Positions 1-41,008 of a stretch of 41,008 nucleotides of DNA are shown piece by piece. The notes beneath the pieces are model-generated. The model saw only the letters and a list, made by a program, of their open reading frames with translations, was not told the DNA's origin and did not search any database. Location of the stretch: NCBI GenBank assembly GCA_013360695.1, contig JABWBC010000014.1, forward strand, positions 1 to 41,008, written 5' to 3'. Numbering within the stretch: the stretch's first letter is position 1; each line of letters starts with the position of its first letter. The DNA is from Phycisphaerales bacterium (lineage in GTDB: Bacteria; Planctomycetota; Phycisphaerae; Phycisphaerales; UBA1924). Both the position numbers and the translations under genes were made by a program.

Positions 1-1831
1 GGAGACAGGAGTCCAGTGATTACGCTATTCATGCGCGTCGGAACTTACCCGACAAGGAACTTCGCTACCTTAGGACCGTCATAGTTACGGCCGCCATTCT
101 CCGGTGCTTCGGTGACGAGCTTCGCTTTCGCTGACCCGCTCCCTTGACATTCCGGTATTGGGCAAGCGTCACTCTGTATACATCGACTTCCGTCTTGGCA
201 CAGAGCTGTGTTTTTGATAAACAGTTCCCAGACCCTTTTCTCTGCGGCCTCCCTTACGGGTAGGCCCCCCTTATCCCGAAGTTACGGGGTTAACTTGCCT
301 AGTTCCTTCACGACCGTTCTCTCGAGCGCCTTAGGCTATTCGCCTCACCCACCTGTGTCAGTTTTGGTACGGGTTCGTCGTCGGCTTTTCTAGGAACCCC
401 ATCCCCCCGCATCGGCCACTAGGGCCTGGACATCTGACAGTCCCGCGGAGCTCAGAGATCCGTTCCCGACGACAGCTCAGGAATATTAACCTGATGTCCA
501 TCGACTACGCCTTTCGGCCTTGCCTTAGGTCCCGGCTAACCCTGGGCGGATTTACCTTCCCCAGGAAACCTTGGGTTTATGGCGATAAGGATTCTCACCT
601 TATTTATCGTTACTTAAGCCGGCATATTCACTTGCTGGCGCTCCACGACCCCTTCCGGGAACGCTTCGCCGCACCAGCAACGCTCTCCTACCGAACCTTT
701 CGGTTCCCGCAGCTTCGGCTCCCTGCTTATTCCCGATCATTATCGGCGCCAAGTTCCTCGCCCGGTGAGCTGTTACGCACTCTTTAAATGGTGGCTGCTT
801 CTAAGCCAACATCCCGGGTGTCATTGCAACCTGACTTCCTTTCGAACTTAGCAGAGATTAGGGACCTTAGCTGGCGATCTGGATTTTTCTCCTTTTGACG
901 ACGGATATTGTCACTCGCCGTCTATCTCCCAGGGCTTGGACCACGGTATTCGGAGTTTGGTTGATCGAGGTAGTCGGGTAGACCCCTGCAATCATCCAGT
1001 AGCTCTACCCCCATGGCTTGCTCCCTGAGGCTAACCCTAAAGTTATTTCGGAGAGAACGAGCTATCTCCCAGTTTGATTACACTTTGAGTCCTCCCGTCA
1101 GTTCATCGGAGACCTTTTCAACGGTCACCCGTTCGACCCTCCAGGCGGTGTTACCCGCCCTTCAGTCTGACCAACGGTAGATCACAAGGTTTCGCGTCTA
1201 GCCCGTACGACTCGGCGCCCACTTCGGACTCGCTTTCGCTCCGCCTCCGCCCTGATAGGGCTTAGGCTCGCCGTACAGACTAACTCGCCGGCTCATTATG
1301 CAAAAAGCACGCCGTCACCCCGAAGGGCTCCGACCGCTTGTAAGCACACGGTTTCAGATACTTTTCACCCCGCTCATCGCGGTGCTTTTTATCGTTCAGT
1401 CGCCTTACTGATTCGCTATCGGTCATCGAGGAGTACTTAGGCTTGGAGGGTGGACCCCCCATGTTCAATCCGGGTTTCCCGAGCCCGAATTTACTCGTGG
1501 CCTCACCGGTTTCCGGCTACAGGGCTTTCACCTTCTTCGGCGCGTCATTCAAACGCTTCGCTTATCTACCGGCTGATCCGCGTTCGCTCGCCGCTACTTG
1601 CGGAGTCGCTGTTGCTTTCCTTTCCTGTAGGTACTGAGATGTTTCACTTCCCTACGTTCGCTCCTCACCCCTATGCATTCAGAGTGAGGTACCCTTGCGG
1701 GTGGGTTGCCCCATTCGGAAATCCCAGGATCACTGCTCGGTTACCAACTCCCCTGGGCTTATCGCAGGTTCCAGCGTCCTTCATCGCCTCTCGATGCCAA
1801 GACATCCACCGTGTGCCCTTTGGCCAATCGC
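1..1831 (-). rRNA. rrl: 23S ribosomal RNA, 5' portion (3' part runs off the left edge)
   Basis: Reverse complement contains conserved 23S blocks: CACACGGTGGATG...TTGGCATCGAGAGGCGATGAAGGACG near the 5' end, and GGCCGTAACTATGACGGTCCTAAGGTAGCGAAGTTCCTTGTCGGGTAAGTTCCGAC near position 40-90. The 5' end is estimated by counting back from GGTGGATG. Confidence 0.97.
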
Positions 1832-2098
1832 ACCAACCCGACGCCGCGATCTCTCGCGACCGGCTGGCAGACCAGAACTCGTGACGACTCACGAGCTCCC
1901 CGGAACTCACCTCGGCCTTCCGTCTTCCACCCCTCACGGGGCTTCCGCCGGATCGCCTCGATGAACCCCGAAGGATTCCATCGGCGCTCATATTCAATGC
2001 TTGCTTTCTTCGTTCTGACGTCTCCATCGGCGGCCGAATCCGCGGGAAATCCCGCTTCCTCGCCCACGCGACGGATCGTCTCGTTCGTCAGTATCCGG

Positions 2099-2134
2099 TT
2101 GTCAAAGAGCTCGGACTCGACCGGGATCAACCCG
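2099..2134 (-). promoter_or_regulatory. boxB-like hairpin plus boxA-like rRNA antitermination element in the 23S leader
   Basis: Minus strand CGGG-TTGAT-CCCG hairpin (2134-2122), followed by AGCTCTTTGACAA (2111-2099), which resembles the rrn boxA consensus TGCTCTTTAACA. Confidence 0.5.
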
Positions 2135-2191
2135 ATTTTCGCCCCGCCGCAGTCGCGGCGACCTCAACCGCTCCGGTTTAGAGGTGGGAGG

Positions 2192-2219
2192 ACTCTAGGA
2201 ATCGACCCCCCGGAGTCAA
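2192..2219 (-). promoter_or_regulatory. Candidate promoter for the unlinked 23S rRNA gene
   Basis: Minus strand TTGACT (2219-2214), 16-nt spacer, TAGAGT (2197-2192), about 360 nt before the 23S 5' end. The segment upstream of the -35 is A-rich (GTCAAAAAACGAG). Confidence 0.45.
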
Positions 2220-2302
2220 GCACATCCCGACTCGTTTTTTGACTCCATTTTCGCATCGCTCGCGTTCGGATAACGATCGCACCAATCGAAAACCGATCGC
2301 GT

Positions 2303-2336
2303 CAAAAAAACACGCCCCGGCGGGTTCGCCGGGGCG
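2303..2336 (-). terminator. Intrinsic terminator of the pil operon
   Basis: Minus strand CGCCCCGGCG-AACC-CGCCGGGGCG perfect 10-bp stem followed by TGTTTTTTT. Confidence 0.9.
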
Positions 2337-39415: not shown

Positions 39416-39589
39416 CAATGGCACCGACCTTTCCTTTCCGCGGCGGGGCAGGGCCGCGGGCCGAGTCGCGGCCCAAGGGTAGGCGGTCCCGAACCGACAT
39501 CGGACCGCCACGAATGCGGGGAGTCGTCTATCATTCTCGATTGGTCGCGGGCCGGGCGCGAGCCCACGCGAGGAGGATGATCGCCGCCG

Positions 39590-40327
39590 ATGTCGAGCCT
39601 GAGCAACAATCTGCCCGATCCGAACGAGCCCCGCCCGCCGCTGGCGTTTGATCGGCGGTTGATCCAGCTTAAACGCCGCCTGGTGCGCGAGGCGACCATG
39701 GCGATCGGGATGCTCGAGACGGCCCTGGACGCCCTGTGGCGGCTGGACCGTCAGTCGGCCAAGGAAGTGACGCGCCTGGATGACCGCATCGATCGCGAGG
39801 AAGTCTCGATCGAGGAAGAGTGCAACTCGATCCTGGCGCTACACCACGTTTTCGCCCGCGATTTCCGGGTGGTGACGTTCATCCTGCGGGTCAATGCCGA
39901 CATCGAGCGGGTGGCGGACCATGCGTGCTCGATCGCCAAGATCGTGCGGAAGATCCAGAGCGACTCCGTGCCGAGTTGGCCGACGTCGCTGCGCGAGCTG
40001 GGCGATCGGGTGCCGATGATGTGCCACGACCTGATGCGGGCCGTGCTGGACGAGAACGTGGACGCGGCACGGGAGCTGGTGCGGAGCGACGAGACAATCG
40101 ACCAGCTGGACAAACGGCTGTTCGACGAGACGATCGACCACATGCTGCTGTCGCCGACGCAGCGGGAACAGCTGGCCAACGGGCTCTTGATCTACCGGGC
40201 CGGGCGAGAGCTGGAGCGGATTGGCGATCTGATGACGAACGTCGCGGAGGACATCGTCTACCTGGCGACCGGGGACATCATCCGCCACGTTGAAAAGCAG
40301 CAGCGCCGGCGCAGCCGCCAGTCGTAG
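39590..40327 (+). CDS. phoU: Phosphate transport system regulator PhoU
   Basis: ALDALWRLDRQSAKEVTRLDDRIDREEVSIEEECNSILALHHVFARDFRVVTFILRVNADIERVADHACSIAKIV; ELERIGDLMTNVAEDIVYLATGD. Confidence 0.93.
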   Translation: MSSLSNNLPDPNEPRPPLAFDRRLIQLKRRLVREATMAIGMLETALDALWRLDRQSAKEVTRLDDRIDREEVSIEEECNSILALHHVFARDFRVVTFILRVNADIERVADHACSIAKIVRKIQSDSVPSWPTSLRELGDRVPMMCHDLMRAVLDENVDAARELVRSDETIDQLDKRLFDETIDHMLLSPTQREQLANGLLIYRAGRELERIGDLMTNVAEDIVYLATGDIIRHVEKQQRRRSRQS

Positions 40328-40547
40328 GCGGGGCGGAACTCGGCAAGAATAGTCCAATTGGCCCGCTGGTCTGGTGTCGAACGGCAAGAACATTGCCGGG
40401 CAGTCCCGGAATCGCCGCCGCCCACCACCATTCCCAAGCGCGCGCTCCCGCTCCCCGGAGCCTTCCCACGACCGCTCGCGAGGACACGCTTGCTGAACGG
40501 CGTGAATGCGTGGATGGGCGACTGCGCGACTTGGTGATTGGCAACTT

Positions 40548-40582
40548 CCAAAAACAACAACACCCACGCGTCTACGTGGGTG
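40548..40582 (-). terminator. Intrinsic terminator downstream of the 16S rRNA
   Basis: Minus strand CACCCACG-TAGACG-CGTGGGTG (perfect 8-bp stem) followed by TTGTTGTTTTTGG, about 212 nt after the 16S 3' end. Confidence 0.85.
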
Positions 40583-40793
40583 CTGCGCCGGAACTTCCGG
40601 GTATTCAAGAAACAGTCGGGGCCGCTTGGCGTGGTGTTGCCACCACGCTATCCGAGTCGCCGAGGCGACGACGGGCGAGGATGCATTGACAGAACATGGT
40701 GAAGATCTCTCTTCGCACCTCTGATCAATCTTTCGATCGACTGGACCGGATCAGGTCCGCGAGGGGCATGCCATGTCTAAGGAAATCCCTTAG

Positions 40794-41008
40794 AAAGGAG
40801 GTGATCCAGCCGCAGGTTCTCCTACGGCTACCTTGTTACGACTTCGTCCCAGTCACCGATCTTGCCGTAGACACCACTGAAATATGGCGGCTTCGGGCAC
40901 TCCCGGCTCCCATGACGTGACGGGCGGTGTGTACAAGGCTCAGGAACACATTCACCGGAGCGTAGCTGATCTCCGATTACTAGCGATTCCGACTTCATGC
41001 AGGCGAGT
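40794..41008 (-). rRNA. rrs: 16S ribosomal RNA, 3' end (5' part runs off the right edge)
   Basis: Plus strand reads AAGGAGGTGATCCAGCCGCAGGTTCTCCTACGGCTACCTTGTTACGACTT and GACGGGCGGTGTGTACAAG, which are the universal 16S 3'-end sites in reverse complement. Confidence 0.98.

Follow-up and report, generated by a model that had tools for sequence, protein, structure and literature searches.

An old separation of the 16S and 23S rRNA genes in Phycisphaerales, with predicted signals for two autonomous transcription units

In the bacterial order Phycisphaerales the 16S and 23S rRNA genes have, very probably, been unlinked since the ancestor of the order and, judging by their sequence signals, would form two autonomous units, while the 39-kb spacing between them in the genome described here would be incidental and due to a rearrangement. 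The unlinked arrangement is real, old and of an already known kind. Computational analysis revealed the separation of the genes, conserved junctions flanking them, an enrichment of promoter and boxA patterns and covarying pairing between leaders and trailers.

The stretch of DNA that was analysed (the window) is an entire contig, C192, of 41,008 bp. It comes from a Phycisphaerales MAG that totals 3.84 Mb over 228 contigs, with 89% completeness and 4% contamination. Both termini of the contig lie inside rRNA genes, so that the remainder of each gene and any further copies are out of sight. At one end are the 5' two thirds of a 23S rRNA gene (1-1832, minus strand; Rfam RF02541 LSU_rRNA_bacteria, 1554.7 bits, model positions 1-2023, cut at the 3' side), with a 98% identical full-length match in the congener G001 (G001:C175). 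At the other end are the last 215 bases of a 16S rRNA gene (40794-41008, minus strand; RF00177 SSU_rRNA_bacteria, 195.3 bits, model positions 1310-1533, cut at the 5' side), of which 215/215 are identical in the same congener (G001:C255). An initial annotation of this DNA had proposed that the two genes are unlinked, about 39 kb apart and on the same strand, and the Rfam ends bear this out with a gap of 38,961 bp that contains protein genes. In a linked rrn operon the 23S gene would lie at most 1500 bp downstream of the 16S gene. Here the 16S gene is followed instead by a terminator-like hairpin (40557-40586, minus strand), situated between 16S and phoU, and by phoU itself, which is convergent with it, as had been noted initially. 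An Rfam scan of the window found no RNA genes besides 16S and 23S, and there are no tRNA genes in it.

The interval is occupied by ordinary chromosomal genes on both strands. Closest to the 23S gene is a pil operon of three genes (2362-8082, minus strand): PilM, a type IV pilus assembly protein (5932-8082, minus; TIGR01175, 157 bits against a cut-off of 133), a second gene of 458 amino acids (4559-5935, minus) and a third of 763 amino acids (2362-4653, minus), which is the last before 23S. The second and third genes have no Pfam family, and homologues of the 763-amino-acid gene are found directly before 23S in many genera. Further along are EF-G (8532-10613, plus), ThiG (12641-13534, plus), coaD (29117-29629, minus), asnS (29633-31222, minus), RlmN (within 31167-33383, plus), DnaB (33388-35178, plus), a methyltransferase (MTase) and PhoU (39590-40327, plus; TIGR02135, 148.3 bits, above the cut-off). 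The dnaB, asnS, coaD, rlmN, thiG and pil genes that had been placed between the rRNA genes are thus all present, and the view that they are not mobile holds as well. Insertion of a mobile element between 16S and 23S was considered and rejected, since the families identified between the two genes include no integrase or transposase. The same DNA contains several other repeated or paired features. Two class-V aminotransferases lie on either side of a cysteine dioxygenase-like gene (17074-20689), and two adjacent Peptidase_MA_2 genes of similar size (20757-23276) are probably a tandem pair. An N-methyl pilin-like N-terminus (31918-32069) is repeated across the genome, and a secreted protein of 656 amino acids carries a C-terminal dockerin-like repeat, DLNHDTFVTGDDYDSF (37050-37208), with dozens of dispersed relatives in this genome and its congeners (G000-G003).

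Split rRNA genes have been reported in Planctomycetota since 1989 and were surveyed in 2020, in agreement with the initial remark that the arrangement is known in this phylum. The early report concerns the planctomycete Pirellula marina (Liesack and Stackebrandt 1989, as cited in PMC7761764), and unlinked rRNA genes occur in many planctomycetotal species (PMC12603096). As in Pirellula marina, the two genes are apart in the chromosome of a planctomycete, and ordinary genes fill the space between them; unlike it, the organism of the window belongs to another class, and here the anatomy of both units and their conserved neighbours are described. Brewer et al. (2020, ISME J), as quoted in PMC8178347, regard rRNA genes as unlinked when more than 1500 bp separate 16S from 23S, or when the 1500 bp that follow 16S contain no 23S, and give a mean distance of about 410,000 bp. 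Measured from the 16S 3' end to the 23S 5' end, the 38,961 bp found here exceed that threshold and are shorter than the quoted mean, so that on these quoted figures the case is of the same kind. On the rRNA arrangement in Phycisphaerae, the papers searched contained nothing more than a general remark.

The age of the separation was addressed with a survey in which a 16S 3' end joined to a 23S 5' end served as query against a class sample and a phylum sample. In the class survey, all 11 of the 11 genomes of the order Phycisphaerales with both ends located are unlinked. Elsewhere in the class, linked operons are found in G126, G129, G132 and G134, which represent four other families. One class member, G162 (contig G162:C1), has linked and unlinked copies together, and in another, G165 (G165:C2), the two genes are co-oriented with a gap of only 6.3 kb; these two are possible intermediates. 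In each remaining class genome with both ends, the two are either unlinked or lie on different contigs. The phylum sample includes 23 genomes (counted from the result table) in which both ends fall within 1.5 kb on one strand, as in a linked operon, which shows that the survey was able to detect linked operons. Since all of these 11 order members are unlinked and linked operons exist elsewhere in the class and phylum, unlinking predates the order and comes down from an ancestor no younger than Phycisphaerales itself. That the split is old had been suggested from this one contig, and the survey bears it out. A separate observation concerns G024:C56 (L262), where a divergent second SSU (849.9 bits) has an LSU piece on its upstream side; this is possibly contamination.

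The regions around the two rRNA genes carry the signals that independent units would need. The pil operon ends in an intrinsic terminator-like hairpin between the pil genes and 23S (2312-2337, minus strand), found at the same place in the congeners G001-G003, so the description of a pil operon and its terminator ahead of 23S was correct. Beyond the hairpin follow a predicted sigma70-type promoter of the 23S unit (TTGACT-16-TAGAGT, 2192-2219, minus), recognised by sequence pattern, and a boxA-like antitermination element in the 23S leader, GCTCTTTGACAACCGGATAC (2091-2110, minus), recognised by the pattern TCTTTGA[AC]. Across 81 loci, the distance from the pil stop codon to 23S is 312-823 bp. 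Within 600 bp upstream of 23S the promoter pattern TTGAC-N16-19-TANNNT is found at 81 of 85 loci, the window included, against 0.8 expected from the mean of shuffled sequences, and is absent at the other 4; upstream of 16S it is found in 26 of 26 regions from relatives (0.3 expected). These sites lie about 370 bases ahead of 23S and about 460 bases ahead of 16S. The boxA core TCTTTGA[AC] is present in 57 of 85 23S leaders, again including that of the window, where about 1 is expected, and absent from 28. Among 16S leaders it is present in 22 of 26 (0.3 expected); the 16S leader of the window's own genome lies outside the contig. As sequence patterns, then, both a promoter of its own and a boxA are found for each gene. 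In G005 a 5S gene follows the 23S gene. It may also be mentioned that G000 contains more than 15 copies of a dispersed non-coding repeat, about 200-380 bp long, with the sequence CTTTGACAAGTGAATA, which is almost the boxA segment found in the 16S leader, CTTTGACAAGTGAACAG. Copies of this repeat (for example L062:3530-3911, L106:4-209 and L120:5034-5222, as well as L099, L266 and L267) are often found at contig ends, and one is at a rearrangement breakpoint in the genus.

The third kind of signal is a helix between the leader and the trailer of each precursor. Both helices of this organism are inferred from relatives, because its 16S 5' leader and its 23S trailer lie outside the contig. For 16S, the window holds the trailer arm, CCCGACTGTTT (40610-40620, minus), which is complementary to the post-boxA segment of a congener's 16S leader. 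In relatives, 19 of 19 true 16S leader-trailer pairs show pairing of at least 11 bp. This length is also reached by 235 of 342 mismatched pairs because the segment is conserved, so that the support comes from compensatory changes and not from the count. Such changes are seen in the leader/trailer combinations GAACAGTTGGG/CCCAACTGTTC, GAACAGTCGGG/CCCGACTGTTT, GAACGGTTGGG/CCCAACCGTTC and CAGCAGTTGGA/TCCAACTGCTG. The 16S helix is visible only when the post-boxA segment is set against a longer stretch of trailer; over about 150 bases of 16S leader and trailer, neither simple duplex energies nor local helix scores distinguished true from mismatched pairs. For 23S, the window contains a predicted boxC-like arm (2081-2092, minus), placed by its position in relatives, with its partner outside the contig. 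The 23S post-boxA segment is more variable than that of 16S, and the trailer partner changes with it: pairing of at least 11 bp is found in 23 of 31 true pairs, against 145 of 930 mismatched pairs (16%) and 30 of 310 shuffles (10%). Covarying helices thus exist for each of the two rRNAs in relatives.

Taken in order, these signals suggest a model of two autonomous transcription units, one with 16S alone and one with 23S and 5S together. Each would begin with a sigma70-type promoter, followed by a boxA antitermination site and then by a stretch of leader able to pair with trailer sequence downstream of the mature 3' end. The promoters would be used in vivo, boxA would recruit Nus factors and RNase III would cleave the leader-trailer helix. 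With its own promoter, boxA and leader-trailer pairing, each precursor could be transcribed and folded independently. The parts are familiar from the Escherichia coli rrn leader with its boxA, boxC and leader-trailer helix (PMC10250234). As in E. coli, boxA is followed by a segment pairing with the 16S trailer, a boxA also stands before 23S, and 23S has a leader-trailer helix too. In E. coli a single promoter region drives both genes, whereas in the order of the window each gene has its own predicted promoter.

The junction between the pil operon and 23S is conserved to an unusual degree. PilM loci were picked by protein similarity alone, and 63 of them had enough downstream sequence. In 60 of these 63 testable named loci (counted from the result table), a 23S gene on the PilM strand follows at a distance of 3.9-5.1 kb, while L137, L140 and L154 lack a 23S gene in the 10 kb downstream of PilM. 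The order pilM-458-763-23S is shared by three families of Phycisphaerales (f1, f2 and f4), but the genomes examined from f5 and f6 do not have it. For comparison, the gene family most often seen upstream of pilM occurs at 47 of 68 loci, and the one most often seen downstream of 5S at 14 of 36; against this background, 60 of 63 makes the pil-23S block unusually stable amid an otherwise shifting gene order. It could be that selection keeps the 23S-5S genes behind a PilM-type pilus operon, for example through coupled expression of pilus and ribosome, but this is unlikely in comparison with an old adjacency that was simply never broken.

The distance of 39 kb is a different matter. The initial annotation took the shared orientation of the two genes as the trace of an ancestral operon, and one can imagine such an operon pulled apart stepwise as housekeeping genes were inserted. 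The same strand and 39 kb in the window fit this idea, as do a genome of another genus (G015) with co-oriented genes 57 kb apart and phoU and pil at the two ends, and the short co-oriented gap of 6.3 kb in G165. Yet the interior of the G015 interval has zero genes in common with that of the window, and the junction on the 16S side is new within the genus. Positions 12.6-38.4 kb of the window are collinear with contig G003:C158, and the MTase-phoU-16S block is collinear with G003:C12. The join between them, at about 38379-38558 (it has no strand), brings the phoU-16S block near 23S and is found in none of the three congeners G001-G003. In the window's own genome, the G003 neighbours of these two blocks are joined together on contig C170, and C30 carries what remains of the block in inverted orientation. 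The new junctions (AP_endo to MTase, X to block B, and the C30 join) make up one consistent rearrangement relative to G003, whose gene order is common to G002. The join is therefore very probably real, and it is derived. In other relatives the genes are 284 kb (G027) or 731 kb (G149, on a single contig) and up to megabases apart; 23S is ahead of 16S in G048, and G057 and G056 have the two on opposite strands. To find two out of about 36 members of the family at 57 kb or less is consistent with random placement (P about 0.32), and highly expressed genes on one replichore are expected to be co-oriented in any case. Stepwise insertion is accordingly very unlikely, and reading an ancestral operon from the spacing and orientation does not hold. 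With a junction absent in congeners, matching rearranged junctions in the same genome and variable gaps in relatives, the spacing is recent and incidental, and the 39-kb distance and shared orientation look like products of a rearrangement within the genus without a function of their own. A contig of another family (G172:C31, L250-L252; 41,581 bp), which runs from 23S to 16S with a co-oriented gap of 39.3 kb, was considered as a conserved version of the interval and set aside as a coincidence, since it shares no gene with the window.

It is also necessary to ask if the separation could be produced by the assembly, with the contig misjoined at an rRNA gene or close to one, in a genome whose operon is in fact linked. 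Reasons for suspicion are that the source is a short-contig MAG (89% completeness, 4% contamination), that the two ends of the contig fall within rRNA genes, which are frequent breakpoints in assemblies, and that the junction at 38379-38558 is absent from congeners. Against this, that junction and the rearranged ones on C170 and C30 of the same genome together make a closed set, which a random chimera would not give. Both rRNA junctions, 16S-phoU and pil-23S, recur in the three congeners and in other genera; they are not chimeras. In each of G001, G002 and G003, MTase-phoU-16S is on one contig and 23S-pil-EF-G on another, although in MAGs genes on different contigs are not always distinguishable from assembly breaks. 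A full 16S is present at the phoU-side location in G001. In other genera of the family, a convergent phoU lies 0.3 to 6.6 kb beyond 16S, and a ComF-like gene, often with mcsB and mcsA, just upstream of it. The closest named matches of PilM are from the Phycisphaerales MAGs SJ514 (85% identity) and SJ353 (82%). The contigs of G002 and G003 end at identical rRNA bases, 62 into 23S and 103 from the 16S end, a sign that conserved sequence common to the genomes halted an assembler. The genes are unlinked too in genomes of the order and class that consist of a single contig (G149, G056, G127, G154, G173 and G178), and an artefact is extremely improbable. Nearly as hard to credit is a linked operon elsewhere in the genome that supplies most of the rRNA. 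The contig ends inside rRNA genes would leave room for it, and G162 has both linked and unlinked copies; but a 23S search of the genome matched at the window locus only (small fragments could escape it), and no linked pair turned up in any order member for which both ends were located. Searches of the same genome for 16S and 5S gave zero matches, the 16S search being insensitive enough to miss even the 215-bp piece in the window.

With unlinked rRNA genes the question arises how 16S and 23S are produced in equal amounts and how their precursors are processed in the absence of a common transcript. The Phycisphaerales sequences suggest an answer in which each gene has a full set of control and processing signals, and this makes the order a good group for testing how stoichiometry is controlled. 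There are practical sides as well: long 16S-ITS-23S amplicons will miss organisms with unlinked genes, and curation of MAGs from the order can use the conserved junctions pil-23S and 16S-phoU as markers.
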